64,000 nt of DNA. Source: Frigoriflavimonas asaccharolytica (GTDB lineage: Bacteria > Bacteroidota > Bacteroidia > Flavobacteriales > Weeksellaceae). The stretch's first letter is position 1. The number at the start of each line of letters is the position of its first letter. Positions 26,851 through 58,836 of this stretch are shown one piece after another. The notes beneath the pieces were generated by a model, which was given only the letters and a program-made list of their open reading frames with translations, was not told the DNA's origin and ran no database searches. The position numbers and the translations under genes were made by a program. The stretch is taken from the NCBI RefSeq assembly GCF_013294015.1, contig NZ_JABSNO010000017.1, forward strand, positions 1-64,000, given 5' to 3'.

Positions 26851-27450
26851 TTAAATAAAATATAAGGTCGGCGGTGCACGAAGTGAAGAATTTCTATACT
26901 TACCAAACTGCAAGTAGGAAAGTTGGTAGTAACTGTTTATTTTTTTTTCTTGGCAAAAAATAGGGTAAAACGTTTGGTAAAAAAATCTTTTATCATATAA
27001 AGATTTACCTATTGGAACTACTACAGCTAATTTACAAGATTGCAAGCCAACTGGGGTAAGTGAATTTTCATGAAGAAACTGATTTGTAAAAGTAGAAAAA
27101 TGAGCGAATTTATTTTCACGTTGCTTCTCAACTTTTATTTGCTCTGAAATTGCTTTTTCCTTAATCTCTTTTGCAAAAGGTTTCTTATCATTTTCAGAAA
27201 TCACCTCACCTTCTACAATAATAGGTTCTACCTGAATGACCACAGATTTTTCTACTGTTGCACTACTATAAACAATAACGCCTGAAGTTATAGTAATCTG
27301 GTTGGATGTGGAAACAGGAATTTCTTCCGCTTTAAGTTGTACAGAAAAAAGAATGGAGACAAAAGATAAAACCAGCAAAAAAAACCGTAGAGGAAATTCC
27401 CTTTGCGGTTTGTTTTTGTTGAAAATTGAAAAAGATAGATTTTCTACCAT
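26851..27450 (-). CDS. Secreted protein with C-terminal R-A-P-P motif, module 8 (P4)
   Basis: A 199-residue protein of no recognised family. A hydrophobic segment at about 22-40 (FFLLVLSFVSILFSVQLKA) is a signal peptide with a long basic n-region. A short beta stretch (ITITSGVIVYSSA) and a charged Lys/Glu-rich helix (about 80-115) follow, and the protein ends LQFGKYRNSSLRAPPTLYFI. The same overall plan and R-A-P-P-type end occur in P1, P2 and P3, though the bodies share little sequence. It is the first gene of module 8, about 42 bases after a possible promoter. Confidence 0.6.
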   Translation of the reverse strand: MVENLSFSIFNKNKPQREFPLRFFLLVLSFVSILFSVQLKAEEIPVSTSNQITITSGVIVYSSATVEKSVVIQVEPIIVEGEVISENDKKPFAKEIKEKAISEQIKVEKQRENKFAHFSTFTNQFLHENSLTPVGLQSCKLAVVVPIGKSLYDKRFFYQTFYPIFCQEKKINSYYQLSYLQFGKYRNSSLRAPPTLYFI

Positions 27451-27498
27451 ATTTTATTTTTTGCTCAATTTTATTCTCATAAAATTTATTATAATGCT

Positions 27499-27506
27499 TA
27501 AATATA
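27499..27506 (-). promoter_or_regulatory. Possible -7 element for P4
   Basis: Minus strand TATATTTA is a one-base variant of TAnnTTTG, 49 bases before the P4 start. The same octamer precedes P1 at a similar distance. Confidence 0.25.
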
Positions 27507-27854
27507 CGAAATAATATTTGAAAATAGGCGATTATTTCACATTGTTTTAATACATTTTAGCTAATTTCTTATTTTGTCTTAATTTTATGTTAAATAATTG
27601 AGGTACAATTATACAAAATAAATCTTATTCAGAAATAATATTTTTTCAGACAATTTTTTATAAGAATTATCAGGTTTTATTGTATAATTTCGACATGTTG
27701 TGTATTGCAATATCACATTAGTAGTATATGATTAAGAGAACAGCTATCCTTAACCATTGAACTATCTATTAAAGATGATGCAGCAGACTTTGGTATCGGT
27801 GAACCAAAAATACTATTTCGTAAAATAATAGTGAAATGTCATTACATAAGATTA
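27507..27854. other. Intergenic with a possible short coding remnant
   Basis: AT-rich. At about 27733-27852 the plus strand has a frame without stops including IELSIKDDAADFGIGEPKIL, with less biased base use than its surroundings. It has no start codon context and I do not recognise it; it may be the debris of a lost gene. Confidence 0.25.
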
Positions 27855-28088
27855 TTATTTTCTTGGAGGTGGAACTATTTCTCCGTCCAAATATTTTTTA
27901 GGACTTTCAATAGTTTGCACACTATCAACTACTAATTCTTGGCTATATTTTGAAGATTCATGTTTTCTGTTGGTTTCAATTATTTTAATTGTTTGAAGAT
28001 CTTCAGTGCTCAAGATTTCGTCTTCTTGTCTACAAGATACAGCAGAGATTACCAAAAGGGTTGCGATTGCAAGGCTAAATGTTTTCAT
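27855..28088 (-). CDS. Small predicted lipoprotein beside the TPR-AraC regulator
   Basis: A 77-residue protein. Residues 1-19 (MKTFSLAIATLLVISAVSC) are a lipoprotein signal with a plausible lipobox S-A-V-S-C, so the mature protein would be anchored at C19. The rest is polar, rich in charged residues and Thr, and ends DGEIVPPPRK. It matches no named family that I know; similar short secreted proteins beside TPR-AraC genes are common in Chryseobacterium-like genomes (general knowledge, not checked). It is divergent from the regulator, with a 181-base shared control region, so it may be a target or a signal for it. Confidence 0.6.
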   Translation of the reverse strand: MKTFSLAIATLLVISAVSCRQEDEILSTEDLQTIKIIETNRKHESSKYSQELVVDSVQTIESPKKYLDGEIVPPPRK

Positions 28089-28112
28089 AATAATTATATT
28101 TTATTGTTGGAG

Positions 28113-28145
28113 CAAAAGTATCTTATCCTAGACTACTACAGCAAA
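28113..28145 (-). promoter_or_regulatory. Promoter of the small lipoprotein
   Basis: Minus strand TTTG (28145-28142), 21 bases, then TACTTTTG (28120-28113): a good match to the Bacteroidota -33/-7 pair, ending 25 bases before the start codon. Confidence 0.5.
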
Positions 28146-28220
28146 TTTTCGAACTTCTATATCATTAAAAAAGAGTTCTAATTCATTAATTATTTAATTT
28201 TCCGTTTATTTTATTTGCTT

Positions 28221-28228
28221 TATTTTTG
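28221..28228 (+). promoter_or_regulatory. Putative -7 element of the TPR-AraC gene
   Basis: TATTTTTG matches TAnnTTTG and lies 42 bases before the TTG start. No good TTG at -33. Confidence 0.35.
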
Positions 28229-28269
28229 CAATATCAAAATCAGACCTCATCTATAAAAATTTATGTGAA

Positions 28270-29991
28270 TTGAAAAAATTTTTTCTTATTCTATTTGTTA
28301 TCGCAAGTTTTTTCTCTCCCACCAGCAAATTATATTCTCAGAAGTTGATCGTTAAAAATTTGACCTACGAGAAAATTGAGAAAAAAATTGATAGTCTGCA
28401 AGACGATAAAGTTCAAGCTTTAAAATTGATTGATTTTTACATAAAAAAATCTAAAAAAGAAAAAAATGATCAATCTTTGGTTTATGCATATAGATATGCA
28501 AGCAACTATAATGAAATTCCCAAAAATTTTAAATATGCAGATAGCGCCCTTTTAATTGCAAAAAAATCTGAAGATATACAGCTCCTCACAGATGCATACT
28601 TGAATAAGGGGACTATATATATGTATGAAGAATATTATAAAATAGCATTGGACAATATTTTAATGGCCAATAAGTATTCTATGCAATTAAAAGATGATTA
28701 TACGATCAATAAAACCATCTACTTTATCGCCCAAAACAAAATTTACCTCGGTAATTATGAAGATGCAAACAGCGAACTGAAAATATGTTTGGAATATTTT
28801 AAAAAAAACTTGAAAGATAAATCTTCTTTGGGGAAAAACTCTCAAATGTACTATCTCTACTCTATGATGTGCTATTTAGATACCAATTCTAAATTAGGAA
28901 AAAATGCAGAAAACAGTGCTTTAGTAAAAGAGACCATAGAATATCTTAAAAAAAACAAGCTAGAAAAGTATATCCCTTATTTTATATCTATTGAAGGTAC
29001 GGATGCATTCTACAACAACAATTATCCTCTTGCAATTTCTAAACTGCAGAAAGCATTGAACTCCTACGATGACCAGTGGGGACACATCACAGAAATTTAT
29101 TACATCGGTCTGTCTAATTGGAAATTGGGAAAACAAGATGTTGCCGTAAAATACCTAGAAGAGATAGATAAGGAATATGAAAAGAAAAGAAAAATAAGTC
29201 CAGAATTTCGCCCTGCTTATGAACTTCTTATTAAATATAATGATTCTATAGGCAATAAGGATAAGCAATTGGAGTATATTAACAAACTTATGCTTCTTGA
29301 TAAATCTTACATAAAAAACTACACCTACCTCTATTCTAAAATAAATAAGGAATACGATACCCAAAAATTATTGCAAGAAAAAAACCGAATAGAGAGATCT
29401 CTACACAGAACTACGATATTAACGGTGTTACTTCTTATTATAATTTTAATAATTTGTATAGGCGGCTATAAATTTTACGAAGTTCGAAAAACTTATAAAG
29501 TACAATTTAACGATATTTTCAATGGAAATTTCCGGAAAAATAAGACACCTATCACGGTAATATTAGAAGAGCCCGACATTGAAGATGAACCAAAAGTGGA
29601 GGAAATAGAATTCTACAACAAAATACTATCTATAAAACCAAATATGGTAAAGAAGATTCTTACTAAATTAGAAAAATTTGAGGAGGAAAATAAATTTACC
29701 GACGCACAACTTTCTATAAAATCACTTAGCGAAGATTTTGGTACCAACTATGTTTATTTATCCAAGATCGTTAATGTATATCGTGGCAACAATTTTAATA
29801 TTTACATCAACGATTTGCGGTTAGAATATGCGATAGAACTTTTGAAGGAAAAGAAATACCTATATTTAGATATCAAGGAGCTCGCTGCTATTTCTGGTTT
29901 TTCTACACCTAATAGTTTTTCTTCCAATTTTGTGCGCAAATTTAAAATGAAACCATCCTACTTTATCAAACTTCTTAAAAATAAAGTATAG
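28270..29991 (+). CDS. Membrane-bound TPR protein with AraC-type DNA-binding domain
   Basis: A 573-residue protein that begins with TTG: the ATG at 28263 is followed at once by a stop, whereas TTG 28270 opens a signal peptide or anchor (KKFFLILFVIASFFS). Residues 35-365 are helical tetratricopeptide-like repeats predicted in the periplasm. One membrane segment follows at about 378-396 (ILTVLLLIIILIICIGGY), then a cytoplasmic AraC helix-turn-helix domain at about 470-573 (SLSEDFGTNYVYLSKIVN; ELAAISGFSTPNSFSSNF; FKMKPSYF). This architecture is a one-component transmembrane regulator. It is the only plus-strand gene in the 42-kb array, so it is a candidate regulator of some modules. It converges on S7. 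Confidence 0.85.
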   Translation: MKKFFLILFVIASFFSPTSKLYSQKLIVKNLTYEKIEKKIDSLQDDKVQALKLIDFYIKKSKKEKNDQSLVYAYRYASNYNEIPKNFKYADSALLIAKKSEDIQLLTDAYLNKGTIYMYEEYYKIALDNILMANKYSMQLKDDYTINKTIYFIAQNKIYLGNYEDANSELKICLEYFKKNLKDKSSLGKNSQMYYLYSMMCYLDTNSKLGKNAENSALVKETIEYLKKNKLEKYIPYFISIEGTDAFYNNNYPLAISKLQKALNSYDDQWGHITEIYYIGLSNWKLGKQDVAVKYLEEIDKEYEKKRKISPEFRPAYELLIKYNDSIGNKDKQLEYINKLMLLDKSYIKNYTYLYSKINKEYDTQKLLQEKNRIERSLHRTTILTVLLLIIILIICIGGYKFYEVRKTYKVQFNDIFNGNFRKNKTPITVILEEPDIEDEPKVEEIEFYNKILSIKPNMVKKILTKLEKFEEENKFTDAQLSIKSLSEDFGTNYVYLSKIVNVYRGNNFNIYINDLRLEYAIELLKEKKYLYLDIKELAAISGFSTPNSFSSNFVRKFKMKPSYFIKLLKNKV

Positions 29992-30040
29992 TTTATTTCA
30001 TTAATTGATTTTATCTACAAGATTAAAAATTTAGCCTAAA

Positions 30041-30562
30041 TTAAATTCCTGTCCAAAACGACCAAACAGTACCGTTGAAAACTGCAAATTGTTTGGTATT
30101 TGGGTCGTAAACCATCATACCTGGAGAAGGATTAGGAATATTGAGGTGTGCATCTGCTACTATTGGTAAAATCATGGCTTTGTTGGTATCTGATAATACT
30201 AAAATACCTGCAGTAGTATCTGTATTGGCATTAGATCCAATCACAGTTTTGGCAGTAGGCACATCTGTAAGTGCATCTTGCAAAGTGGTATTTGCAAAAC
30301 CATTTCCATCTATGGAAAAATCTTTCCAACTTGCATTTAGCTTTACTTTTATTTTAAAATCTGCAGCATCATAAATTACTGTACCAAGTACTGCATTTGT
30401 TACACTATTTTGAGAGGAAACCCACGGTAGAATAATTCCTTTGTTCCCTGTACCAAATTCTACAGAAACAGAATTATTGGTGGTGGTAGTTTTTCCTATT
30501 GCTACTTGTGAATAGATACTGCTAGATATAAAAAGAGCGATGATTATAATTGATTTGCGCAT
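30041..30562 (-). CDS. Small two-repeat secreted protein, module 7 (S7)
   Basis: A 173-residue secreted protein and the most divergent member of the S family. Signal peptide 1-18 (ending SIYSQ). The internal duplication is clearest here: NKGIILPWVSSQ with GTVIYDAADFK in the first unit, NKAMILPIVADA with GMMVYDPNTKQFAVFNG in the second. It ends SFWTGI, not SFWKP. The spacer to L7 is only 40 bases, lacks the hairpin of the other modules, and no terminator follows before the convergent AraC gene. Confidence 0.72.
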   Translation of the reverse strand: MRKSIIIIALFISSSIYSQVAIGKTTTTNNSVSVEFGTGNKGIILPWVSSQNSVTNAVLGTVIYDAADFKIKVKLNASWKDFSIDGNGFANTTLQDALTDVPTAKTVIGSNANTDTTAGILVLSDTNKAMILPIVADAHLNIPNPSPGMMVYDPNTKQFAVFNGTVWSFWTGI

Positions 30563-30602
30563 TAATTTAAATTTTAAATAATTTATAAAAGATAGAATAT
30601 TT

Positions 30603-32618
30603 CTAAGGACAAGTTTGATTGCTAAGACACTTCCAACCTGCAGAAGTTCCCGTGGTATTTATTTTTAAGCAATCTGCTTGTATATCAAACACCATCATAC
30701 CTTCCACTGGATTGGGAATAGCTATTACTTGCGCTGTAGTTTGTATTCTATTTACTACAAATCCTTTTGTTTTGGCCTCCATTGCAGTCCATCCACTTTG
30801 TCTCACCATTGGCCAATTGCCATTGTCTGCACCAGCTCTAGCTAATGCTGTAATACCATGTTGAGTAGGATATAGATTTCCATCTTTAAGAGCAGGTTTG
30901 TAGCATGCTCCACAGATAGTAACGTTTTTTGAAGTACTAGATATTGTACCATTGCCTCCACTTGTAGCACCATTTGCAGGAAATTCTGTAACAGAAAAAG
31001 AAGTACTAAGACCATTTAAACCTCCCGTAGAATTTTTGATAGAAGCATCTACAGTAGCATTGATAATAGCTACTACTCCACCACCTCCACCTCCACCTGG
31101 GCTTTCAGCTTCATTAGAATTGATCAATTGGTCTCCACCTTTACCTCCGTTTGCTCTTACTACAGCGGCATTTACTATTTCTATGGTTTGTATAAGCACA
31201 GTACCACCACCGCCACCTCCTCCAGGTGCATCATTACCTGCTCCAACAGTATTAAGTGCAGCTTCTCCATTCGCAGTGAATGTACCTGTACCAGAAATTT
31301 TGTTTAAATTCATTACTAGAACTATTCCACCTCCATTTGCTGCTCTTTGATGGGCATTATTATTTCCATCTCCAGCTCCACCGCCACCTCCGAAAAACAG
31401 CTGCTTTTGTATGCCAGAAGTAGTAAGTGGTCTACCGCCAAGTCCGCCCGCAACATCTCTTCTATCTGCTCCCCACGCATCTTGCACTACATTAACAGCA
31501 GGAATACCAGGAGCAATAAAATTTGCTGGGTAAGATGGTCCAATTAAGCAAGCATCCGCATTTACGCTGCTATAACTGTATCCACCTCGACCACCACCAG
31601 CAGAATTTGTGAGTGCGTTTGCATTTGCAATATAATCTGGATCCAATGCCCAAGCACCAGGAATTCCGCAGGTACCAAAACTATTCATCACTCCCGCACC
31701 ACGGAACCAATTTGCTGCAATACCACCATTAGCACCACCTCCACCAGAAGCATTGTGGGCGTTTCCACCACCACCACCATTTGCTGGTGCTCCGCGGCCA
31801 TATCTTCCACCCAAAGCATCATATTCTGAAGAATATCCTGCTATACTTTCACCTTTTTCAGCAGATATATTGGAACTTGTAGTTACAAAATCTGTATAGA
31901 AATTAGCATTAGCACCAGATGTATTATTATCGGTTTCTCCACCTCTAAAACCTGCACTATCTGCATTGATAGTACCATTATTTACTAAATTATTAGATAA
32001 AATAGTATTTATCCCTCCTCTCCGTCTTTCAACTGCTGCTGCATTTGCACCTCCAAAATTTGCAGATCCCCAAGGTACAGTAACTATAGAACCAGTAGCA
32101 GTAACAGTGAGCGTATTATATTGTGGAACTCTTACCACCTGCACATGGTTTGCAATTGCATAAGAATTGGTAACAGCGCAAGATAAATTAATTGTATTTC
32201 CTGCAACGCTTACCACTCTTGCATATTCATAATTACCTGCACCATTGTAAGAAGTTATTGCTCCATAATCAATAGTATTAGTAGTATTTATTATGGCACC
32301 TTGCACTTGGTAAATCATTATTAAATCTCCTGTAGAAAGAGCGTTACTAGAGTATGATGCAGCATTTGAAACAAAACCAGTGAGGTAAGTACTGCCATCT
32401 CTATTTAAATCGGCTATATTTGATACACTAAAGCTGGTAGCACCTGCTGCAATATTAGCCGCAGGTTTTGCATACCTATTTAAAACAGTATTGCTTGTTG
32501 ATAATGTAAGATTGCCATCTTTTCCTGCCTGAGCAAAAAATGTTGAGCAGGTGAATAATACCAAAAAAGCATAAAACTTATGTGCTTTTTTACTACTAAA
32601 AAATAAATATAATTTCAT
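30603..32618 (-). CDS. Large glycine-rich surface protein with conserved tail, module 7 (L7)
   Basis: A 671-residue secreted protein with a signal peptide ending TFFAQ (about 30). The N-terminal part (KDGNLTLSTSNTVLNRYAK, about 34-52) is followed by a beta-rich region and by glycine runs between about 265 and 500 (GGGGGNAHNASGGGGANGG; FFGGGGGAGDGNNNAHQRA; APGGGGGGGTVLIQT), typical of elongated beta-helix-like surface proteins. The tail is the most divergent (GMMVFDIQADCLKIN, KCLSNQTCP) but keeps NWPMVRQS and KGFVVNR. There are no thrombospondin type 3 motifs. A related N-terminal fragment survives as a pseudogene at 47365-47631. Confidence 0.72.
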   Translation of the reverse strand: MKLYLFFSSKKAHKFYAFLVLFTCSTFFAQAGKDGNLTLSTSNTVLNRYAKPAANIAAGATSFSVSNIADLNRDGSTYLTGFVSNAASYSSNALSTGDLIMIYQVQGAIINTTNTIDYGAITSYNGAGNYEYARVVSVAGNTINLSCAVTNSYAIANHVQVVRVPQYNTLTVTATGSIVTVPWGSANFGGANAAAVERRRGGINTILSNNLVNNGTINADSAGFRGGETDNNTSGANANFYTDFVTTSSNISAEKGESIAGYSSEYDALGGRYGRGAPANGGGGGNAHNASGGGGANGGIAANWFRGAGVMNSFGTCGIPGAWALDPDYIANANALTNSAGGGRGGYSYSSVNADACLIGPSYPANFIAPGIPAVNVVQDAWGADRRDVAGGLGGRPLTTSGIQKQLFFGGGGGAGDGNNNAHQRAANGGGIVLVMNLNKISGTGTFTANGEAALNTVGAGNDAPGGGGGGGTVLIQTIEIVNAAVVRANGGKGGDQLINSNEAESPGGGGGGGVVAIINATVDASIKNSTGGLNGLSTSFSVTEFPANGATSGGNGTISSTSKNVTICGACYKPALKDGNLYPTQHGITALARAGADNGNWPMVRQSGWTAMEAKTKGFVVNRIQTTAQVIAIPNPVEGMMVFDIQADCLKINTTGTSAGWKCLSNQTCP

Positions 32619-32662
32619 AAGAAAATTTTTATATCTGAATTTTGTAAATTTAAATAAGTGGA

Positions 32663-32860
32663 TTAAAGGATTTTAATCGGCCGCAAAGTAAACACGAATT
32701 GGCTCCGAATCCAAAATAATAACAATGTTCTATTGATAAAGCCAAATTGTTTGTTGTTTGGATCATTTAACGTCATTTTCATCAACTGTTTTTATATAAT
32801 TGATGGAAACCATCGCCATTACAATGGCAAATTTGCGCGTATTTCGTTAAATCTGTATGC
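32663..32860 (-). pseudogene. Decayed S-type gene fragment upstream of L7
   Basis: On the minus strand one frame gives NTRKFAIVMAMVSINY, comparable to DTNKAMILPIVADAHLN of S7, and the next frame continues NDPNNKQFGFINRTLLLFWI, comparable to YDPNTKQFAVFNGTVWSFWT of S7. A frameshift near 32780 separates the halves. It ends 44 bases before L7. Interpretation as an S remnant is inference from this two-part similarity. Confidence 0.45.
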
Positions 32861-33454: not shown

Positions 33455-33535
33455 GATAAGATTATGATTTTTTCGAATAATTATACTAGCTATTTCTTAA
33501 TACTGTATTATGAAAATTCATATTGACAGGTCATT

Positions 33536-33599: not shown

Positions 33600-34160
33600 T
33601 TACGGTTTCCAAAAAGACCACTTAGCTCCATTGTAAACTGCCAAACGTTTTGCGCCCGCTTTGTTTACGTAAACCATCATTCCTGGTGAAGGACTTAGAA
33701 TATTTTGCACATCTGCTACTATTGGCAAAATCATCGCTTTCGTGGTAGATTCTAATACCAAAACGCCATCTGCAGAACTGCTGGTTGCACCAATGATGGC
33801 TTTTGAGTTTGCTAATTCTGTGATAGAAGCTGGCTGTTCTGTTGCAAAATTGGCTAAAACTGTGCTGCTGTTTAAATTCGCGTTTTGGCCACTTAAATCT
33901 ACCCATCCTTTTACAGCTCCAGCGTAATATTTTACTCTAGATGTTAAAGGTGTGCTTGCATCTAGAAGTATCGTACCTTCTGTAGGTGCTGTCGGGATTG
34001 TTCTTACATAAGGCAAAATAATTCCTTTATTTTGTCCTGTTGCAAAATCTAATAACACAGAGGTATTTATATTTGTAGATCCAGTTGGTCCACCGATGAT
34101 TACTTGTGCATTCGCGCCGTTTATTATTGCTAAAAATAGTGTTGCTATTATTTTTTTCAT
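33600..34160 (-). CDS. Small two-repeat secreted protein, module 6 (S6)
   Basis: A 186-residue secreted protein, subtype A, nearly identical to S9, S2 and S1. Signal peptide 1-19 (MKKIIATLFLAIINGANAQ, one residue different from the others). First unit LLDFATGQNKGIILPYVR; second unit LVLESTTKAMILPIV, GMMVYVNKAGAKRLAVYNG, SFWKP. The near-identity over the whole gene suggests recent duplication or gene conversion among modules 1, 2, 6 and 9. It begins 78 bases after L6. Confidence 0.75.
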   Translation of the reverse strand: MKKIIATLFLAIINGANAQVIIGGPTGSTNINTSVLLDFATGQNKGIILPYVRTIPTAPTEGTILLDASTPLTSRVKYYAGAVKGWVDLSGQNANLNSSTVLANFATEQPASITELANSKAIIGATSSSADGVLVLESTTKAMILPIVADVQNILSPSPGMMVYVNKAGAKRLAVYNGAKWSFWKP

Positions 34161-37501: not shown

Positions 37502-38140
37502 TCATGAAATAACAAAAAATGGTGGTGCACGAGATGATGAATTACCGTATTTATGAAATGGTAAATACAGAAATGAGGCATAGAATTTTTGCTTCTCTTT
37601 TTCTTCAAATCCACCGTAAATATGAGAATTTGCAAAAATTGCTTTCTGAAATTTCACGGAAGAAGATATACCATTTCCAATAGCTTCTATATTTCTTTTT
37701 CTAGTGGAAGGGTTTAAATCTGAAGAAATTGGATGGTTGAATGTAGCAAAATGAGCGGTTTCAGCAACATGCTTTTGCTGTTTTTCTAGTGCTTCTTGCT
37801 CTTTTTGTTTTATTTGTTGAATTTCTGATGCTAGAGATTTTTTGCCAAATTTATTAGATTTTTTTTCTGTAGCTGCTATTTTCTCAATTGTATAAGACGC
37901 CTTGATATAGGATGTTTCTTCTTCAATTATCATTTTTGCATTGCCAGCAAGATACACATTTGCAACATTCTTGAGCTCAGCGTTTTCTGTTGAAATAGCT
38001 TTTTTTGCTTCTGCGTTTTTCGCTTCTGTTTTTTTTCCCTGCACAATAATCTTTGCATCGCCTGAAATAAAAATTTGAGCAAAAGACATGGAAAAATTCA
38101 TTAAAAAAAGAAAGGAAAACACTCTTATGGAAGATTTCAT
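37502..38140 (-). CDS. Secreted protein with C-terminal R-A-P-P motif, module 6 (P3)
   Basis: A 212-residue protein of no known family. I chose ATG 38140 because it opens directly into a signal peptide (MKSSIRVFSFLFLMNFSMSF); the frame is open for 51 more codons upstream without sense. Two short beta motifs, IFISGDAKIIVQG (about 23-35) and VYLAGNAKMIIEE (about 63-75), are repeats of one another, and P1 has the related YISGDAVIF. A Lys/Gln/Glu-rich helix, probably coiled coil, spans about 95-130. It ends YGNSSSRAPPFFVIS. The role is unknown; constant position in front of L suggests co-function. Confidence 0.58.
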   Translation of the reverse strand: MKSSIRVFSFLFLMNFSMSFAQIFISGDAKIIVQGKKTEAKNAEAKKAISTENAELKNVANVYLAGNAKMIIEEETSYIKASYTIEKIAATEKKSNKFGKKSLASEIQQIKQKEQEALEKQQKHVAETAHFATFNHPISSDLNPSTRKRNIEAIGNGISSSVKFQKAIFANSHIYGGFEEKEKQKFYASFLYLPFHKYGNSSSRAPPFFVIS

Positions 38141-41782: not shown

Positions 41783-42373
41783 TCAAATAAAATAATTTGG
41801 TGGCGCTCGTAGAGAAAACCATTGCACAACTTTCGTTTGTAGATTAAAAAATTTATTTAAGAATTTATGTTTTTCTAAGCAAAAGGTTCCATCTTCAATA
41901 TTAACCTGAAAAGAACTTTCTTTTATTGAGAATTTTTTACAATTAACAATCGTATTAAATTTTCCAAATTTATATCTGGTTAAAAGATCGTTTTGCAATT
42001 CAGCATCTTTTATATAAAGTAGCGTGCGCAGTGTTTTAGTTTGTAGCTGTTTTGCTTCTTTACCTTTCGTAGCTTTTTTACCATCTGCATTATTAGATTT
42101 TATTTTGGCTTTTTTCGAAGTTTTAGCGATTATTGTTTTTTCAATTCTTTTTATATGAGAGATTGTATCTGCATAATAATAAGATTCTCCAACAATTGTC
42201 ACGTCACTAGAAATTTGAATCCCGTTCTCCTCGGATTGTGGTAATTGTGGGTTTTCTTTTGCCGAATAGGATGATACTGAAAAAATTAAAAAACAGAATG
42301 CGAAAAAGCGTGTAGAAAATCTACGCGATGTAATATTAGAGATTGATGTTAATAAAAGTAAAATTTTTTTCAA
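41783..42373 (-). CDS. Secreted protein with C-terminal R-A-P-P motif, module 5 (P2)
   Basis: A 196-residue protein of no known family. Signal peptide about 1-38 with a basic n-region and core FFAFCFLIFSVSSYS. A short beta motif (IQISSDVTIVG) comes next, then a very basic Lys-rich stretch (about 85-120: AKTSKKAKIKS, KKATKGKEAKQ). The C-terminus is VVQWFSLRAPPNYFI. It is 38 bases before L5 and 44 bases after a good -7 element, so it is the first gene of module 5. Confidence 0.6.
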   Translation of the reverse strand: MKKILLLLTSISNITSRRFSTRFFAFCFLIFSVSSYSAKENPQLPQSEENGIQISSDVTIVGESYYYADTISHIKRIEKTIIAKTSKKAKIKSNNADGKKATKGKEAKQLQTKTLRTLLYIKDAELQNDLLTRYKFGKFNTIVNCKKFSIKESSFQVNIEDGTFCLEKHKFLNKFFNLQTKVVQWFSLRAPPNYFI

Positions 42374-43640: not shown

Positions 43641-43656
43641 ATAATATCACATTATA

Positions 43657-50862: not shown

Positions 50863-51423
50863 TTACGGTTTCCAAAAACTCCACTTGCTACCATTGTAAA
50901 CTGCCAAACGTTTTGCGCCTGCTTTGTTTACATAAACCATCATTCCTGGAGATGGACTTAAGATATTTTGTACATCTGCTACTATTGGTAAAATCATCGC
51001 TTTCGTGGTAGATTCTAATACCAAAACGCCATCTGCAGAACTGCTTGTTGCACCAATGATAGCTTTTGAGTTTGCTAATTCTGTGATAGAAGCTGGCTGT
51101 TCTGTTGCAAAATTGGCTAAAACTGTACTGCTATTTAAATTCGCATTTTGACCACTTAAGTCTACCCATCCTTTCACGGTTCCGGCGTAATATTTTACTC
51201 TAGAGGTTAAAGGTATGCTCGCATCTAGAAGTATCGTACCTTCTGTAGGCGCTGTTGGAATTGTTCTTACATAAGGCAAAATAATTCCTTTATTTAGTCC
51301 TGTTGCAAAATCTAATAATACAGATGTATTTATAGTTGCAGATCCAGTTGGTCCACCAATTACAACTTGTGCATTCGCGCCGCTTATTATTGCTAAAAAT
51401 AGTGTTGCTATTATTTTTTTCAT
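50863..51423 (-). CDS. Small two-repeat secreted protein, module 2 (S2)
   Basis: A 186-residue secreted protein, subtype A. The start MKKIIATLFLAIISGANAQ at 51423 is preferred over an in-frame ATG at 51486 because it reproduces the signal peptide and the 76-base spacing of S1 and S9, and because the longer form would begin inside the spacer hairpin. First unit LLDFATGLNKGIILPYVR; second unit LVLESTTKAMILPIV, GMMVYVNKAGAKRLAVYNG. Its partner L2 has a subtype A tail. Confidence 0.75.
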   Translation of the reverse strand: MKKIIATLFLAIISGANAQVVIGGPTGSATINTSVLLDFATGLNKGIILPYVRTIPTAPTEGTILLDASIPLTSRVKYYAGTVKGWVDLSGQNANLNSSTVLANFATEQPASITELANSKAIIGATSSSADGVLVLESTTKAMILPIVADVQNILSPSPGMMVYVNKAGAKRLAVYNGSKWSFWKP

Positions 51424-51456
51424 TTCGTTTAGTTTAAAAATTAAATTAGTAAAATA

Positions 51457-51483
51457 GGGAAGTATTTTTTGCAAATACTTCCC
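51457..51483 (-). promoter_or_regulatory. Intercistronic hairpin L2-S2
   Basis: GGGAAGTATTT (51457-51467) pairs perfectly over 11 bp with AAATACTTCCC (51473-51483). A T-containing stretch follows, so it could act as a weak terminator, an attenuator or an mRNA end-protecting structure. It ends 34 bases before S2. Confidence 0.65.
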
Positions 51484-51499
51484 CATCGTACGGTAATTA

Positions 51500-53833
51500 T
51501 TATGGACAAGTTGGCGTTACGAAACAACTCCAAGTGCTGCCATCATATAATTTAAGACATTTGGCTACAGTATCATATACCATCATTCCATCTTGTGGAG
51601 ATACAATATTTGTAATTTCAGTAGTTGTCGCTCTGGTAATTACAAAACCTTTTGTGTTAGATTCTAAGGCTGTGAAACCAGATTTTCTAATCATAGGCCA
51701 ATTGCCATTATCGGTTCCTGCTCTTTGCAGCAGTGTAACACCTTGTTTAACGGCTGATCCTGGTGCTGTTTTATTTGCATCGTCGTAGCAGACACAATTT
51801 CCTACAGTTACTAAATTTTTCACAACACTTGTACATCCGCTGGAACTTGTATAAGTATAAATAATGTTGGCGGTACCAGTTGCCCCATAAATAGTTGTTG
51901 CGACACCAGTAACAGAATTAATATTTAATAAGCTTGGCTGATCTGTGCTCCAAACACCATCTAATTGGCCATTAGAGAAAGTGTAGGTATCTGGTACACT
52001 TTTGCTGCTGCAAAGATATGCACCTGCAGGCAAAATTGCAGGTAGCGCTATTGGAGAAGGTGCAAAAGTGACATCATCTATTGCCAAATCGTTTCCTGAA
52101 CCTCCAATGGAATTATTTTTTAGAAAAATTTCTCCAACAGTGGAAGTTGCTGTAAAAGTAAATGTATATTGTTTCCAAATAGTTGTTGAAATATCGCCTG
52201 TATTTATGGAATTTAACAAAACGCCAGTTGCAGCATCTGCAATTCCCATAGTAATATTCGGTCGAATTGGAACATTGGGAGATAAATCTGCAACCCAAAA
52301 TGAAAAATCGTAAGTAGTACCAATGGATAATCCTGTAACAGTCTGCCGAAAAAAATCGTCTGTTGCGTAAGATGCATTGAAAATAGCAAAATATCCATTG
52401 GGTTCCGTAGAAGTATGATTAAGCAATGTTGTATTTCCTGTCCAATTTGCGCTATTTTTTGCTAAACTATAATAACCATCTGATACAAAACCTTGATCTA
52501 AATAATGATAAGAAGTAAAACCACTTATAGCTGGGCCAAAATCAGAAGTACCTTGTCCGAAAGTCAAAATATTATTTATCGAACATAAACTTGGGGAAAC
52601 AATAGAATTTTCTAATGCATTTCCATAAACCACATGAACTACTTCACCTGCAGCTACATTTATTGTTGCGGTAGATGTAGAAACATCACTACTGCTGTTT
52701 GTTGTAGGATCGTAAATTAAAATATTATTATTATTCCATCCCGCGACATCAATTTCTGATAGAGTATATGTTCCTGCTGATACAGGTATCATTATTGAAT
52801 TACCATTGGCAACATTGGTTCGTAATCGTTCATCATCTAACCAAAGCCCACTGTTTAATCTGCTAAATATTGTATGTTTAATGATATCTGCATTTACTTT
52901 ATTAATACCCCAAACTTGATTTCCTACACCAGCTGTTAAACCAGTTAAACCTCTTGATCTAACATTATTGATCCAACCACCTCCAGCTGTGTATTCGAAA
53001 ACCACATTTGTTCCTTCCGAATTGGTAAAGTTGGAGTAGATTGTGCCATCATTACTTACCGCGACATCTTTTTGATACGACCCTATTGTAATCATATCTG
53101 TTAGTGCTGGAATTATGGTAACAGTTGCGGCAGTATTATCTCCAGGAAATTTGTAAACATTTGTGTCATTATTCGATACAAAAACAACTTCTTGATTGGT
53201 TGGTGTAGGATTTATATCTGCTCTTATCGCATTAACAATTGTTGCGGAAGAATACTGAATCCAACTATCTGTAGTGCCCGAACCTGTATATTTATAAATT
53301 TTACCTCCACTTCCTACGGCAACTATAGTTTTACCATCTCCACCAGAAGCAACGTCGACAATTCTGATATTGCTGTGTGCAGTTGGCTCCCAAATTTTCG
53401 AAAAGCTAGTTCCATTATAAATATAAACTGCCCCAATATCATCTGAATAAACTGCAGAATTTGTCCCAATTCCGTCAACAGACCTAGCTGTTACAACAGA
53501 CGTTGCAGTCCAATTAGTTGCATTTACAGCTCTCGTATACAATGTTCCAGTAACATCATGAACGGAACCATTTGAAATCGCATCATTTACTACTGCCCAC
53601 AATTGGCCTTCTCCAGTTCCATGGCTATTTCCCAAATCAAAAGAATTGAGTGCATTGGGTTGATCATTAAGGTTGAATGATTTTATGTTGGTAGCACCTT
53701 GCTTTAAATTAAAAGAAAAATCTACAGATGCTAATTCACTTGTTGCTTTTTTGTGTACATAGATATACCCATTTTGGGCATACAGATTTAGCGTGATTAC
53801 AAACGCTAAAATTAAAATTAATTTATTTTTCAT
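51500..53833 (-). CDS. Large surface protein with beta-propeller-like body and conserved tail, module 2 (L2)
   Basis: A 777-residue secreted protein with a signal peptide ending LNLYAQ (about 20). Residues 25-330 contain recurring units (GQLWAVVNDAI, RSVDGIGTNSAVYSD, IVAVGSGGKIYKYTG, VFVSNNDTNVYKFPG, NQVWGINKVN) suggesting a beta-propeller. Residues about 415-590 form a beta-sandwich of the type often used for carbohydrate binding (GYFAIFNASYATDDFF, YDFSFWVADLSPN, EIFLKNNSIG). An Ig-like unit precedes the tail. There are no thrombospondin 3 motifs. The tail is subtype A. It starts about 70 bases after the module 1 terminator and has no P gene. Confidence 0.75.
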   Translation of the reverse strand: MKNKLILILAFVITLNLYAQNGYIYVHKKATSELASVDFSFNLKQGATNIKSFNLNDQPNALNSFDLGNSHGTGEGQLWAVVNDAISNGSVHDVTGTLYTRAVNATNWTATSVVTARSVDGIGTNSAVYSDDIGAVYIYNGTSFSKIWEPTAHSNIRIVDVASGGDGKTIVAVGSGGKIYKYTGSGTTDSWIQYSSATIVNAIRADINPTPTNQEVVFVSNNDTNVYKFPGDNTAATVTIIPALTDMITIGSYQKDVAVSNDGTIYSNFTNSEGTNVVFEYTAGGGWINNVRSRGLTGLTAGVGNQVWGINKVNADIIKHTIFSRLNSGLWLDDERLRTNVANGNSIMIPVSAGTYTLSEIDVAGWNNNNILIYDPTTNSSSDVSTSTATINVAAGEVVHVVYGNALENSIVSPSLCSINNILTFGQGTSDFGPAISGFTSYHYLDQGFVSDGYYSLAKNSANWTGNTTLLNHTSTEPNGYFAIFNASYATDDFFRQTVTGLSIGTTYDFSFWVADLSPNVPIRPNITMGIADAATGVLLNSINTGDISTTIWKQYTFTFTATSTVGEIFLKNNSIGGSGNDLAIDDVTFAPSPIALPAILPAGAYLCSSKSVPDTYTFSNGQLDGVWSTDQPSLLNINSVTGVATTIYGATGTANIIYTYTSSSGCTSVVKNLVTVGNCVCYDDANKTAPGSAVKQGVTLLQRAGTDNGNWPMIRKSGFTALESNTKGFVITRATTTEITNIVSPQDGMMVYDTVAKCLKLYDGSTWSCFVTPTCP

Positions 53834-53903
53834 ATTTTGTGTTTAAAATATAATTTCGTTATAATTTCGTCAGTATTTTAATGCATTAATGGTAAAACGT
53901 TTA

Positions 53904-53935
53904 AATAAAAAATCCCCGAAATGGGGATTTTTATC
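53904..53935 (-). terminator. Terminator of module 1
   Basis: AAAAATCCCC (53907-53916) pairs perfectly with GGGGATTTTT (53923-53932), T run on the minus strand, about 60 bases after the S1 stop. Confidence 0.85.
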
Positions 53936-53993
53936 CTAAATACGAAGCTTTAGCATTTCTGGTTTTAATACCATTAATAAAAATGCTTCCTCT

Positions 53994-54554
53994 TTACGGT
54001 TTCCAAAAACTCCACTTGCTACCATTGTAAACTGCCAAACGTTTTGCGCCTGCTTTGTTTACATAAACCATCATTCCTGGGGATGGACTTAAGATATTTT
54101 GCACATCTGCTACTATTGGTAATATCATCGCTTTGGTGGTAGATTCTAATACCAAAACACCATCTGCAGTACTGCTTGTTGCTCCAATAATGGCTTTTGC
54201 AGATGCAGTTTCTGTGATAGAAGCTGGCTGTTCTGTTGCAAAATTTGCTAAAACTGTACTGCTGTTTAAATTCGCACTTTGGCCACTTAAATCTACCCAT
54301 CCTTTCACGGTTCCAGCGTAATATTTTACTCTAGATGTTAATGGTGTACTCGCATCTAGAAGTATCGTACCTTCTGTTGGCGCTGTTGGCATTGTTCTTA
54401 CATAAGGTAAAATAATTCCTTTATTTAGTCCTGTTGCAAAATCTAATAATACAGAAGTATTTACAGTTGTAGATCCAGTTGGTCCGCCGATGATTACTTG
54501 TGCATTCGCGCCGCTTATTATTGCTAAAAATAGTGTTGCTATTATTTTTTTCAT
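53994..54554 (-). CDS. Small two-repeat secreted protein, module 1 (S1)
   Basis: A 186-residue secreted protein, subtype A reference for this locus. Signal peptide 1-19; first unit 34-90 (LLDFATGLNKGIILPYVR, PTEGTILLDAS, KGWVDLS); linker 91-131; second unit 132-186 (LVLESTTKAMILPIV, SPSPGMMVYVNKAGAKRL, WSFWKP). The K-G/A-(x)-I-L-P and G-(x)-(I/M)-(L/V) pattern of the two units corresponds to KGFVITR and GMMVYDT of the L tail. No cysteine is present in the mature protein, unlike the L tail. It follows L1 by 76 bases. Confidence 0.75.
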   Translation of the reverse strand: MKKIIATLFLAIISGANAQVIIGGPTGSTTVNTSVLLDFATGLNKGIILPYVRTMPTAPTEGTILLDASTPLTSRVKYYAGTVKGWVDLSGQSANLNSSTVLANFATEQPASITETASAKAIIGATSSTADGVLVLESTTKAMILPIVADVQNILSPSPGMMVYVNKAGAKRLAVYNGSKWSFWKP

Positions 54555-54587
54555 TTTGTTTAGTTTAAAAATTTAATTAGTAAAATA

Positions 54588-54615
54588 GGGAAGTATTTTT
54601 TGCAAATCCTTCCCC
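54588..54615 (-). promoter_or_regulatory. Intercistronic hairpin L1-S1
   Basis: GGGAAGTATTT (from 54588) pairs with AAATCCTTCCC (54605-54615) with one mismatch; same position as in modules 2 and 9. Confidence 0.55.
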
Positions 54616-54630
54616 ATCATACGGTAATTA

Positions 54631-57600
54631 TTATGGACAAGTTGGCGTTACGAAACAACTCCAATTGCTGCCATCATATAATTTAAGACATTTGGCTACG
54701 GTATCATATACCATCATCCCTTCTTGTGGAGATACAATATTACTAATCTGAGTAGTTGTTGCTCTCGTGATTACAAAACCTTTTGTATTAGATTCTAAGG
54801 CTGTGAAACCAGATTTTCTAATCATAGGCCAGTTGCCACTGTCTGCACCAGCTTTTTGTAATAAAGTAATTCCGTGTTTGGTATCTACACCTGCTGCAGT
54901 TTTATTTGCATCATTGTAGCATACCAACAAACAATCGTAAGTATATTCTACTTTGTAAAAATAAGATGCTTTAGTTTTTGACAAACTATTTAAGGTACCA
55001 CCGCCACCTTGAATTGTAATTCCAGTAAATGTTGTAACTGAACTTGGAACAGATCCAACTCCTATAAAATTAGCTAAATTAGCAGTAGAAGTATATGTAT
55101 TACTACTACTATATGTTGTATTAAACGGAAATGTAGTTGTACCAGAAGCAAAAGTTTGACTAGCAGGATAAGTAGGATTTTGTATCGATACAAATTGAGA
55201 AACTGGAGCAGAAAAACCTGCAAAATCAAATGTCAAATCTGAAGCTTGTGAAAATCTTGCTGTTACAGATGCTGCATTTGTATTCGTGATATCAACGTCT
55301 CCATTGAAGGTGATACCATAATCAACTTTTACTGCGGTAAGTTTTCTGCTTGCACCTTCATCAAATTTAGGGATGATGGCACTTCCATTAATTTCAGTTA
55401 ATGAAAATGGTGAATAAAAGTATTGCGTGATTGTATTACCAGTAGAGTTACTAAGACAAATTGTAGAACAAGTGCCAGTATTTGTAATTGTTAAATTTTG
55501 TGCTGCACCACCATTATTAGGTGTAATAATAATTGTAAAATCGCCGGAACCTAAACTGCCATTTAACACTTTTAAATACGTACCATACCCATAATTAATA
55601 TTTGTTGCTGCGCTATTATTCATTAAAGTAATGGTTGCAGGATTTCCACCAAAAGTTGCTGTTACATTATAAGTAGTTGCACCACTTGGTTGCGCTGGAT
55701 CTATCTGAAAAAACATATAATCATCTGCACTATTCTCAAAAGTACCATTATTTGAACATGTAGCAGCTGTAGAAATGCATGAAGTTACTATTACGGTGGA
55801 AACTGTAGATGTTACAGAACCACACGTTCCAGATACAATACTGTAATAATATTTGGTTCCTACTGCAGAAGTAGAGGGAGTATAAGTTGCAGTTGTAGCG
55901 CCAGAAATTAACATACCACCAGTTGCAGTATTGATGGTATTACTGTACCATTGGTAGGATAAAGTTCCTGTTCCAGATGCTGTAACACTTAAGTTGACAG
56001 GTATATTATCTTTGCAAATCGTTTGTATACTTTGTGGTTGTGCAGAAATTGCTGTAGAAGCAGTAACATTAACGGCAGAAACACCCGATGTAGCCGTACC
56101 ACAAGTTCCTGTAACAATTACATAGTAATATATAGTACCAACTACGTTGGTTGGTGGTGTGTACGTAGAAGCACTAGATGTTCCTATTAAAGTACCTCCC
56201 GTTGTAGAATTTGTAGTATTGCGGTATAATGCATAAGAAAGCGTACCAGTACCAGTTGCTGTAATACTTAAATTAGTAGGTGTTGCATTTCTACATAAAG
56301 TTTGTGTAGCAGGTGATGCAGAAACAATTACTGTTGCAGCATTTACAATTACTGTTGCAGTATTGGAAGTTGCACTATTACAAGTTCCAGTTACTACGGC
56401 GTAATAATAAAGAGTACCTGCCGTTGCAGTAGAAGGAGTGTAAGTTGCAGCTGTAGCACCTGTAATCAATGTACCACCTGTTGTACTATTGGTTGTATTT
56501 CTGTACCATTGATAGGTAAGTCCTGGTCCAACTGCAGTAACGCTTAAATTTGTAGGTGCATCATTTTGGCAAACCGTTTGTGTTGGTGTAGGTTGTCCTG
56601 TAATAGTAGTTTTATTCACGGTGACTACAGAAATGGCAGAAGTTGTTGGACTTCCACAAGCACCTGTAACTTGCGCATAATAGTAAAGCGTTCCGTTTAC
56701 AGAATTTGGAGGTGTGTATGTAGAACTTGTAGCACCAGATATCGCAGTACCTGTCGTATTGCTATTTACGGTATTTCTAAACCATTGGTATGTTAAAGTT
56801 CCCGCTCCACTTGCTACAATAGTTAATGGAATGGCAGGTGCAGGATTACAAACTGTTTGATTTGCGGCAGGTTGAATATCTATTACTGGTGCAGGGCAGG
56901 GAATCTTTAATGCATATTCAGCCTCAATTACTAAATCTTGTAACGTAGTAGTAACAATATTCATACTGGTAGAACCAGGAGTGAAATTCCCAGTTAGAAT
57001 ATCAATATCTAAAGCAGAACCAGAAGAACTATTACCAAAATCATTTGGAAAACTAGGAAAACTAGGATCTGAAATGGTGCAAGATTCACCAGCTAATCCT
57101 GGGTCGCCTTGTAAGAATACCGCTGTAAGAGTACCTGCTGTACTTCCTGAATTTGGGACTGCATATCCCGACACATTTGTAGTACTCGTTATCTGATAAA
57201 TACTTACCAATCCATCATACAAATATATTTTTTGAGAAACTCCGGGTGTGGTAGTATAAACCACAGTTAAAGTCCAAGCACGAGCATTCCCCTGTTGCAA
57301 AGCACATGCACTAGGATAAGCTCCATTGATATCTACAGTGTAAGTTCCATTTGGATTTGCTAAAGCCTGCAACTCGGAGGTTACATCTACTTTTTTAGAT
57401 TCATAATTCACTGCGCTTCCATTAACACTTGAGTAAGCAGGTCTTGCAGTTGCATTCAAATTTACAGCAGAAGCTCCCGGTGCTTTAAAAGAAATATTAC
57501 CTAATGGCATGTAAGTATTCAAACCTACATTTTCATATCTAGTCATACCATACCAATGCACATAAGCTTTTACAATCGTAGCTCCTGAAGGAATACTTAA

Positions 57601-57861
57601 TGTTCTAGATGAAGCAGCATCTGTCCCACAGTTGTTAGAAGCTCCTGTTTCTGTAAGTTCCGAATTACCAATTACTTCATAATCATAATCTCCCACAATG
57701 GAGTAATAACTAGAAATTGGTGTATTGTTATTAGATTGACCTTTAATACTAATTGTGCTAAATAGACCTATCGCAAAAACAAGTAAAGCTAAAAATCCTT
57801 TATAACAGACCAAGGATGGACTGGAATAGGATTTTAAATTGTGTGAAAATTTGTTTTTCAT
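54631..57861 (-). CDS. Large Ig-repeat surface protein with conserved tail, module 1 (L1)
   Basis: A 1076-residue secreted protein. A long basic n-region precedes the hydrophobic core (FLALLVFAIGLFSTISI, about 23-39). Residues 50-330 form a beta domain (GDYDYEVIGNSELTETGAS; IVKAYVHWYGM; KIYLYDGLVSIYQI). Four Ig-like repeats of about 88 residues follow (TLTYQWFRNTVNS, LTYQWYRNTTNS, LSYALYRNTTNS, LSYQWYSNTINT, each with YTP and YYYAxVTGxC). Residues about 715-800 form another beta domain, then one more before the subtype A tail (KCLKLYDGSNWSCF). There are no thrombospondin motifs. It lies 393 bases after P1, much further than in other P-L pairs. Confidence 0.75.
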   Translation of the reverse strand: MKNKFSHNLKSYSSPSLVCYKGFLALLVFAIGLFSTISIKGQSNNNTPISSYYSIVGDYDYEVIGNSELTETGASNNCGTDAASSRTLSIPSGATIVKAYVHWYGMTRYENVGLNTYMPLGNISFKAPGASAVNLNATARPAYSSVNGSAVNYESKKVDVTSELQALANPNGTYTVDINGAYPSACALQQGNARAWTLTVVYTTTPGVSQKIYLYDGLVSIYQITSTTNVSGYAVPNSGSTAGTLTAVFLQGDPGLAGESCTISDPSFPSFPNDFGNSSSGSALDIDILTGNFTPGSTSMNIVTTTLQDLVIEAEYALKIPCPAPVIDIQPAANQTVCNPAPAIPLTIVASGAGTLTYQWFRNTVNSNTTGTAISGATSSTYTPPNSVNGTLYYYAQVTGACGSPTTSAISVVTVNKTTITGQPTPTQTVCQNDAPTNLSVTAVGPGLTYQWYRNTTNSTTGGTLITGATAATYTPSTATAGTLYYYAVVTGTCNSATSNTATVIVNAATVIVSASPATQTLCRNATPTNLSITATGTGTLSYALYRNTTNSTTGGTLIGTSSASTYTPPTNVVGTIYYYVIVTGTCGTATSGVSAVNVTASTAISAQPQSIQTICKDNIPVNLSVTASGTGTLSYQWYSNTINTATGGMLISGATTATYTPSTSAVGTKYYYSIVSGTCGSVTSTVSTVIVTSCISTAATCSNNGTFENSADDYMFFQIDPAQPSGATTYNVTATFGGNPATITLMNNSAATNINYGYGTYLKVLNGSLGSGDFTIIITPNNGGAAQNLTITNTGTCSTICLSNSTGNTITQYFYSPFSLTEINGSAIIPKFDEGASRKLTAVKVDYGITFNGDVDITNTNAASVTARFSQASDLTFDFAGFSAPVSQFVSIQNPTYPASQTFASGTTTFPFNTTYSSSNTYTSTANLANFIGVGSVPSSVTTFTGITIQGGGGTLNSLSKTKASYFYKVEYTYDCLLVCYNDANKTAAGVDTKHGITLLQKAGADSGNWPMIRKSGFTALESNTKGFVITRATTTQISNIVSPQEGMMVYDTVAKCLKLYDGSNWSCFVTPTCP

Positions 57862-58254
57862 ATTTGAGTTTTTAAAAATGTTTTGATGTTTATAAGTTTA
57901 GAGAGTAGAATTGCTGCAAGTGTTTGTTTAGAGCAATTGTACTTTAATCCTATAAAAAATAGGATTGTTTGTTTAACTAAAATTTGTCGAAATCTTTGGA
58001 CAGATAAGTAATGCAGAAAATATTTAAGAATCTATTTATTAAAGAAAATTACCATTCAGTATCAAACAATGATTCGTACATGATCTTCCCTTAAGAATCT
58101 ACTGAAGATTTAAGAGAATTACATGCTAAAATTTGAAGGTAAATCTTCTGCAGTGTTTTTTTTGAGAAAATTTGAAATATTAAATTAAAGGTGGCTATAA
58201 AGTTTTGGAAGAGTTGCACAGCAAAACACTTACACCAATTTGATAAATAATAAG
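57862..58254. other. P1-L1 spacer with leader hairpin
   Basis: It is about 390 bases where other P-L spacers are 38-59. No gene is seen. AGTAGAATTGCT (57904-57915) pairs with AGCAATTGTACT (57932-57943) with one mismatch, and AATCCTAT/ATAGGATT (57946-57966) forms a second small hairpin, both shortly before L1. Confidence 0.4.
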
Positions 58255-58836
58255 CTACACCAAAGGTGGAGGACGAGAAAATAGGAATTGTGAAAGTTCT
58301 GCAGTTTTAGAAAATTCTGCATTGTAAATATTTAATAAATAAACATACACTGGAACTGAAAATAAAGTGTAATGATTAGTTACTGTAGTTTTATTGGAAA
58401 AACTAGGGGTAAAAACAGAAATAGTATTATTAAACTTCATAGAAGTAGCAATACTCTGACTAGGTTCTGTTGGTGTAAAAATAAATTTTGACTTTATTTT
58501 TTTATGAGAAATATGAATAGCTGGTTTCTCCTCTATTTTAACAGTTAGCTCTTGCTCCAAAACTTTGAATTCTGAAACTTCTTTTACCAAATCCTTTTCT
58601 TCAGATTTTGGCAATTCTATAACTGTGGATGTTGCGGAAGCGTCAAAAATAACCGCATCACCAGAAATGTAGATAACTCCTTCTACTTGGTCTACAGGTT
58701 TATATCCTATAGCATTTGCACTAAGGAGCTGTGGAATTAAGAAGAGAGCAAATAAGAGAAAAAAGAAAGTTTTAGTAAATAATTTACTACCACTTTTTCT
58801 AAGTCTTACTCCTTCAAAAAAGAGATTTAATTTCAA
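58255..58836 (-). CDS. Secreted protein with C-terminal R-P-P-P motif, module 1 (P1)
   Basis: A 193-residue protein of no known family. Signal peptide core at about 24-41 (FFFLLFALFLIPQLLSANA). A beta motif GVIYISGDAVIFDAS (about 52-66) is close to that of P3. A charged segment follows (about 75-105), and the C-terminus is SQFLFSRPPPLV, a variant of the R-A-P-P end. It is the first gene of the array, 191 bases after the rplL terminator region. Confidence 0.55.
   Translation of the reverse strand: MKLNLFFEGVRLRKSGSKLFTKTFFFLLFALFLIPQLLSANAIGYKPVDQVEGVIYISGDAVIFDASATSTVIELPKSEEKDLVKEVSEFKVLEQELTVKIEEKPAIHISHKKIKSKFIFTPTEPSQSIATSMKFNNTISVFTPSFSNKTTVTNHYTLFSVPVYVYLLNIYNAEFSKTAELSQFLFSRPPPLV

Follow-up and report, generated by a model that had tools for sequence, protein, structure and literature searches.

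Secreted-type proteins ending in Arg-(Ala/Gly/Pro)-Pro-Pro as predicted translation-arrest leaders upstream of large secreted-type protein genes in Frigoriflavimonas asaccharolytica and its relatives

What reads the shared C-terminus of four otherwise variable secreted-type proteins is the question raised by a 64,000-nucleotide (nt) stretch of Frigoriflavimonas asaccharolytica DNA (contig NZ_JABSNO010000017.1, positions 1 to 64,000; hereafter the window). These proteins, designated P, are encoded on the minus strand by P1 (58255..58836), P5 (41783..42373), P6 (37502..38293) and P8 (26851..27450), and all four genes were confirmed. The first-pass annotation had described them as secreted proteins with a common plan, a RAPP-like end and little else in common, and had suggested that something, such as a sorting or assembly factor, recognizes the end. 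Our analysis indicates that the P proteins are quite probably RAPP-class translation-arrest leaders, predicted from sequence to control the next gene, whether positively or negatively. In our best reading, they would work like SecM, ApdP or CruR rather than carrying a C-terminal sorting signal.

P1 ends in SRPPPLV, P5 in LRAPPNYFI, P6 in SRAPPFFVIS and P8 in LRAPPTLYFI, with two, four, five and five residues, respectively, behind the R[AGP]PP core. The RPPP core of P1, the proposed arrest site, occupies 58264..58275, and the RAPP cores of P5, P6 and P8 occupy 41798..41809, 37520..37531 and 26869..26880 (all on the minus strand). When all six frames of the window were scanned, exactly four stop-closed segments of at least 20 amino acids contained R[AGP]PP, and these were the P genes; the confinement of the motif to these segments argues against chance, and the scan detected no P gene in the remaining modules. 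The plan previously attributed to these proteins held up, as hydrophobic signal-like segments are present at all four N-termini and the beta motif occurs in each protein, albeit in degenerate forms (IYISGDAVI, IQISSDVTI and IFISGDAKI, plus VYLAGNAKM and ITITSGVIV). In P1, the motif reads IYISGDAVI and lies 133 residues before the Arg, while P6 contains two copies, 181 and 142 residues before it. P1 and P5 lack an ATG ahead of the signal-like segment and require a TTG start. A likelier ATG start of P6 (MKSSIRVFSFLFL, 38140-38138, minus strand) is internal to the listed open reading frame (ORF). Pfam and NCBIfam scans of the four proteins yielded sub-cut-off matches only.

To what extent P occurs elsewhere was assessed with two profiles. 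Profile A1, built from six full-length P proteins including the motif, matched 41 of 320 genomes of the same bacterial family. Because A1 contains the motif, a second profile, A2, was built from 27 rows from which the last 70 residues of each member had been cut off. It matched 119 of the 320 genomes at an E-value of 0.001 or better, covering 10 of 33 genera. The earlier statements that the proteins share little else, and that conservation is confined to the last residues, are thus wrong at the profile level, since the N-terminal part alone finds the family. Among the A2 matches listed, 80 outside the training set were fetched, chiefly in order of E-value; the profile-building rows, most A1 matches and most matches beyond about E 8e-7 were skipped, and three weaker matches were fetched although others of similar strength (for example G313:C5, G153:C8:12919 and G127:C20:8385) were left out. 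A script could read 73 of the 80 fetched frames. The seven uncounted frames comprise L127 and L172 (locus labels are our own), which were read by eye and end in SIRPPPKESFQ and SIRPPPLF; L120, L145, L147 and L154, which are broken or motif-free in the frame read; and L159, which is cut by a contig end. Among the A1 matches, L062 and L067 are unrelated and L049 is broken. Decayed copies of P were seen at L145, L049 and L120: one contains an inner stop in a frame ending in RAPG, an ApcA-type core, and two are shortened, running onto or adjoining L/S remnants (the L and S genes are described below). A search across the order (296 genomes, E 1e-5; the share of these outside the family is not given) returned 15 matching genomes, all belonging to the same family. 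No Pfam family matched more than one of 27 members (best E 0.0014), and the literature on arrest peptides and stalling in Flavobacterium, Chryseobacterium and Bacteroidota yielded no description of the P family; the source data of PMC12992588, which possibly hold P members, lay outside the scope of that search. Judged by profile matches, the P proteins form a large family among Chryseobacterium-type bacteria; we did not come across a name for it.

The end of the protein proved to be conserved among these homologues, as had been proposed. Although A2 is blind to the motif, 71 of the 73 readable frames end in R[AGP]PP (67 RPPP, 3 RAPP and 1 RGPP), followed by 1-22 residues, mostly 2-4; after removal of four frames that also matched A1, the count was 67 of 69. 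All of a further 26 members carry the motif as well, these having been chosen with their ends in view and with L066 (TSPP) left out. The form of the end across the family is R-(A/G/P)-P-P, in which RPPP is commonest. All six codons are used for the Arg, and all four for each of the last two Pro residues, indicating that selection acts on the amino acids. Among 215 other ORFs of the same loci, four contained the motif within their last 26 residues, namely L127 and L172 themselves, one neighbouring P and L120, which was taken as a P by its end only. No further R[AGP]PP was found in any of the 80 P frames in the form in which they were read. Conservation in 71 of 73 frames upholds the idea that something recognizes the end, but the ribosome is a better match for this role than a sorting or assembly factor.

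Conservation is highest in the core itself. RPPP was present in all 17 close homologues chosen on everything but their last 75 residues. Their mean identity was 0.53 at positions -60 to -21, 0.56 at -20 to -1 and 1.0 in the core, and then 0.5, 0.27, 0.12, 0.12, 0.49, 0.12, 0.18 and 0 at the eight positions that follow. The tail behind the core is the least conserved part, yet it is not free of constraint. In 41 tails drawn from motif-bearing frames and made non-redundant over the 30 residues before the motif (the core being constant by construction), weak preferences for an aromatic residue were observed at -2 and at -16/-17. Ten RAPP/RGPP members, which we selected ourselves, are alike over about 20 residues before the core, with the consensus KQKFYTSLSYLQFGKYRNSSLR[AG]PP.

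These features resemble the rules established for known arrest peptides. Mutagenesis of ApdA, ApdP and ApcA showed that the Arg is irreplaceable, and in ApdA and ApdP the exchange of Ala for Gly is fully permissive and that for Pro, Ser or Asp partly so (PMC12992588). At the sequence level, the Ala/Gly/Pro variation at position 2 of P follows these rules; the RPPP core of P1 corresponds to the Ala-to-Pro form that is partly arrest-competent in ApdA and ApdP. In the stalled state, the A-site holds the codon of the last Pro (PMC12992588; structures in PMC10951233), so the residues behind it need not be conserved.

A hydropathy script, simpler than SignalP and distinct from it, detected an N-terminal hydrophobic segment in 72 of the 73 P proteins. 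Between the hydrophobic core, measured from its end, and the Arg lie 147-334 residues (median 161, n = 99), and more than 30 amino acids separate the signal from the motif end, as in published arrest peptides. Read by eye, the family form of the beta motif is about IY(I/V)xxG(A/T)xVxG. In the 87 proteins in which a simple pattern matched within 60 residues of the hydrophobic core (12 were missed), this motif precedes the Arg by a median distance of 132 residues (5th-90th percentile, 129-143), and the distance falls within 127-143 in 90% of them. For 41 proteins that are less than 40% identical and have a single motif copy, the distance was 127-161 (median 135, standard deviation 7.6). The linker is close to random in sequence, its mean pairwise identity of 0.23 barely exceeding the 0.21 of shuffled sequences (n = 52). 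Proteins L042 and L046 have a longer N-terminal part with the beta motif still at 139, and the long protein L165 departs from the pattern, with its motif at 314 and a weak second match at 125. A scarcity of insertions and deletions, together with shared ancestry, is an alternative cause of the constant length. The structure model of P reached a mean predicted local distance difference test (pLDDT) score of 46 with no confident fold, from a shallow alignment, and that of S (mean pLDDT 47) was likewise too poor for a fold search.

A leader should precede a gene that it could regulate, and 72 of the 73 readable P genes are followed by a same-strand ORF within 1.5 kb. An N-terminal hydrophobic segment was detected in 66 of these 72 downstream proteins. 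Spacers, terminators, base composition and the L/S C-terminal domain were examined in a second set of 73 loci, consisting of 69 fetched loci and the four of the window; it leaves out the seven unread frames, the two exceptions described below, and L158 and L169, which have no usable next gene. In this set, the domain profile matched 44 of 73 downstream proteins (E 0.01), and 12 of the 29 without a match are truncated where the fetched stretch ends. A position upstream of secA, secDF or yidC, typical of the Sec/YidC monitoring substrates SecM, MifM, VemP, ApdA, ApdP and ApcA, was not found, as the 44 loci and the window have L/S genes downstream and the rest were judged by their sequence ends. 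All other features used in the published screen for arrest peptides (PMC10987492) are present in P.

On this basis, we propose the following mechanism. Translation of P would begin at a TTG or GTG in part of the family, and the signal-like segment would take the nascent chain to Sec. Once Arg-(Ala/Gly/Pro)-Pro forms the end of the P-site chain and the last Pro enters the A-site, peptide-bond formation should be blocked, as the motif and the published RAPP work suggest; of all steps, this predicted stall of a signal-bearing chain at RxPP has the best support, from the motif and the pattern across the family. The signal-like segment, the beta motif some 132-135 residues back and a Lys-rich stretch would then lie outside the ribosome and could pass into the periplasm. 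Docking or export of this exposed part may pull on the chain and end the arrest; the trigger could be general export through Sec or a binding partner of the beta motif. The dwell time of the ribosome at the end of P would set how strongly the next gene, a secreted L or S-type one, is expressed. Start codons are in keeping with such a role: between the preceding stop codon and the hydrophobic peak, TTG or GTG is the sole available start in 22 of 99 P genes, compared with none of 73 downstream genes, and no ATG, TTG or GTG is available in 3 of 99 and 2 of 73, respectively. Weak initiation would suit a leader.

Stalling of SecM switches its downstream gene on. CruR acts in the same direction, by a demonstrated mode in which the downstream gene is shielded from Rho (PMC9426467). 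By analogy with both, stalling of P would most likely switch the downstream gene on. The P-to-next-gene spacers, of 38-800 nt, have no obvious common RNA element, which would fit a CruR-like mode, and perhaps the stalled ribosome shields the mRNA from Rho. The opposite sign, in which the stall keeps L silent until export of P permits its synthesis, is a variant contained in the arrest-leader reading and adds nothing to its probability. Since most downstream proteins have a signal-like segment of their own (66/72), withholding them until export is free might make sense; SecM and CruR work in the other direction, and at 73 of 73 loci a distance of 56 nt or more separates the downstream start from the proposed A-site codon, which places it beyond the footprint of a stalled ribosome. 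We regard this sign as possible, though doubtful.

Readings that do not involve regulatory arrest were weighed against the same data. If RxPP were a sorting or assembly signal, which a factor in the periplasm or outer membrane would recognize on exported P in order to bring it together with L and S, the secreted appearance of P, its secreted-type neighbours and the conserved end would all be accounted for. A C-terminal reader could also explain the usual tail length of 2-4 residues and the mild preference for Phe. However, tails span 1-22 residues and are poorly conserved, the residues allowed at position 2 fit the arrest rules, and no other window segment, L and S included, bears the motif. 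Because of the poor conservation behind the core, we rank sorting below arrest and consider it improbable; the usual tail length of 2-4 residues counts in its favour. Alternatively, P might be a structural partner or chaperone of L that acts through its beta motif, the prolines merely slowing translation through unregulated pausing sensitive to elongation factor P (EF-P). Conservation of the N-terminal part with the beta motif across 10 genera would agree with this, as would the adjacency of P and L. Ordinary polyproline pausing has no need of a constant Arg, however, RAPP/RGPP arrest is reported to be refractory to EF-P (PMC12992588), and the low-scoring P model has no confident fold; a partner role appears very improbable.

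Several observations weigh against translation arrest. Three proteins deviate in the core, namely the two exceptions among the readable frames, KPPP (L139) and RPPT (L176), and TSPP in the A1 match L066, which ends in GTSPPFSLG; the script found no clear signal-like segment in the next ORF of L139 or L176. RPPP, the commonest core of P, arrests only partially in ApdA, and in ApdP in Escherichia coli, and ApcA tolerates Ala alone (PMC12992588). Ser and Asp are partly tolerated in the published motifs, but neither was seen at position 2 in the P family. Most RAPP-like segments of E. coli and Bacillus subtilis proteins that were tested did not cause arrest (PMC10987492), which implies that context matters. 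The tails are under some constraint, as 33 of the 41 non-redundant tails are 2-4 residues long and Phe comes first behind the core in 12 of the 41 and in 12 of 17 in the close clade. Finally, five of the nine L genes of the window have no preceding P.

The mRNA gives further points on the same side. Virtual stalling raised the accessibility of the start site only from 0.51 to 0.60 at 18 junctions, and to 0.55 in the control with the stall placed 30 nt upstream. Terminator-like hairpins were detected in 12 of 73 spacers (3.7 in shuffles). The last 260 nt of P, with the core masked, contain more C than G in 92% of 73 P genes, compared with 42% of 156 other genes; third codon positions are no more skewed in P (C/G, 1033/792) than in downstream genes (2689/2032), and the excess can therefore be put down to amino-acid composition. 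Separately, candidate regulatory elements were tried and set aside: an mRNA hairpin switch of the SecM type, located between P and L, was weak and irregular (18 junctions with spacers of up to 130 nt), an intrinsic terminator in the spacer is too infrequent to be the general mechanism, and a Rho site in P has the C>G excess without its strengthening at third codon positions.

A more specific form of the arrest-leader reading makes use of the near-constant spacing. P might serve as a molecular ruler, in which the stalled ribosome tests whether the beta motif can dock on the outer-membrane machinery that exports or assembles L/S and adjusts L/S synthesis to the capacity of the outer membrane. 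A nascent chain needs about 60 residues to reach from the peptidyl-transferase centre to the far side of SecYEG by way of the tunnel. A span of about 130 residues would be long enough for this path and would leave about 70 extended residues, roughly 200-240 Å, to cross the periplasm. We consider this idea rather unlikely; if it were true, P, with its mainly RPPP cores, would be, to our knowledge, the first arrest peptide that monitors an outer-membrane step.

The genes that P would control lie in an array of modules. Each P gene of the window opens a module, as previously noted, with an L gene for a large secreted-type protein directly downstream on the minus strand: L1 (54631..57861; Ig_7 and choice-of-anchor E domains and the L/S C-terminal domain) follows P1 after 393 nt, L5 (39105..41744; Big_9 domain and the L/S C-terminal domain) follows P5 after 38 nt, L6 (34239..37442) follows P6 after 59 nt, and L8 (22889..26809) follows P8 after 41 nt. 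L and S share a homologous C-terminal domain of about 60 amino acids of the GMMVY type. Two S proteins scanned against Pfam gave no match above the cut-off, and at E 1e-8 homologues of S were detected in 269 of the 320 genomes. In the window, rplL and rpoB flank nine L and nine S genes (the ribosomal and polymerase genes were named by eye). The flanking two are usually neighbours; here about 42 kb of L-S modules separates them (16741-59079). Four S proteins (17191-17751, 33600-34160, 50863-51486 and 53994-54554) are 92-95% identical while their L neighbours are unlike over most of their length, suggesting recent S duplication or gene conversion. A plus-strand gene inside the array (28270-29991) appears by eye to encode a TPR protein whose end is a DNA-binding region of the AraC type, and it might regulate the modules. 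In the gap between P8 and this gene (27451-28269), a small minus-strand ORF starting MKTFSLAIATLLVISAVSC and ending in PPPRK resembles a lipoprotein by eye. The L protein at 30603-32618 scored 181 bits against the N-terminal model of AgmC (adventurous gliding motility, NF047640), whose cut-off is 275.

Similar arrangements were found in other P-bearing genomes, which include Kaistella sp. SH40-3, K. antarctica, K. chaponensis, Chryseobacterium piscicola and Halpernia humi. One locus of K. chaponensis (L181) reads rplL-P-L-S-P-L-S-rpoB, P-L-S follows rplL in K. antarctica (L180) and H. humi (L182), and P-L-S modules run up to rpoB in C. piscicola (L183). An extra small ORF lies between P and L in H. 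humi (L182) and Kaistella sp. (L178). A second P-like ORF of H. humi (L182:10984-11637), ending in SGRGPPYLLA, was located downstream of an L-S pair.

Among known systems, SecM of E. coli resembles P in principle, as a secreted leader with an Arg-Ala-Gly-Pro stall near its end. It differs in that its RAGP stands in an FxxxxWIxxxxGI context and controls secA, and FxxxxWIxxxxGIRAGP was absent from the listed P tails. ApdP and ApdA (Sakiyama 2021, PMC7897499) and the RQH family of RAPP-like arrest peptides (Fujiwara 2024, PMC10987492; Morici 2024, PMC10951233) are, like P, small secreted upstream ORFs with RAPP/RGPP near the C-terminus, more than 30 amino acids between signal and motif, and a variable sequence ahead of the motif. 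Whereas they precede secA, secDF or yidC, P precedes genes for surface-type proteins. P further differs in that RPPP is its commonest core, that Gln or His was not seen at the first motif position in the family, that the N-terminal part, which includes a beta motif, is homologous among its members, and that some genomes contain several paralogues. CruR of Bordetella pertussis also has a signal peptide and a RAPP near its end, followed by three residues, and regulates a downstream TonB-dependent receptor gene, with the spacing between its sensor motif and RAPP being important (PMC9426467); its domain, DUF2946, did not match the P proteins of the window or the 27 members.

RAPP/RGPP-containing small secreted upstream ORFs were recently predicted ahead of diverse genes outside protein localization (Fujiwara 2025, PMC12992588), and few such cases beyond Sec have been worked out. 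That screen covered only RAPP and RGPP and, among downstream genes, analysed those to which a function had been predicted; its design therefore does not extend to RPPP leaders ahead of L/S genes that lack annotation. The natural variation in the roughly 100 homologues read here would show which core residues a working motif tolerates, and the P family offers a directly testable case for the coupling of large surface-protein synthesis to export. The arrest class itself is known from ApdP, CruR and their like; the P family, RPPP-dominant, paralogous and tied to L/S genes, would be new to it.

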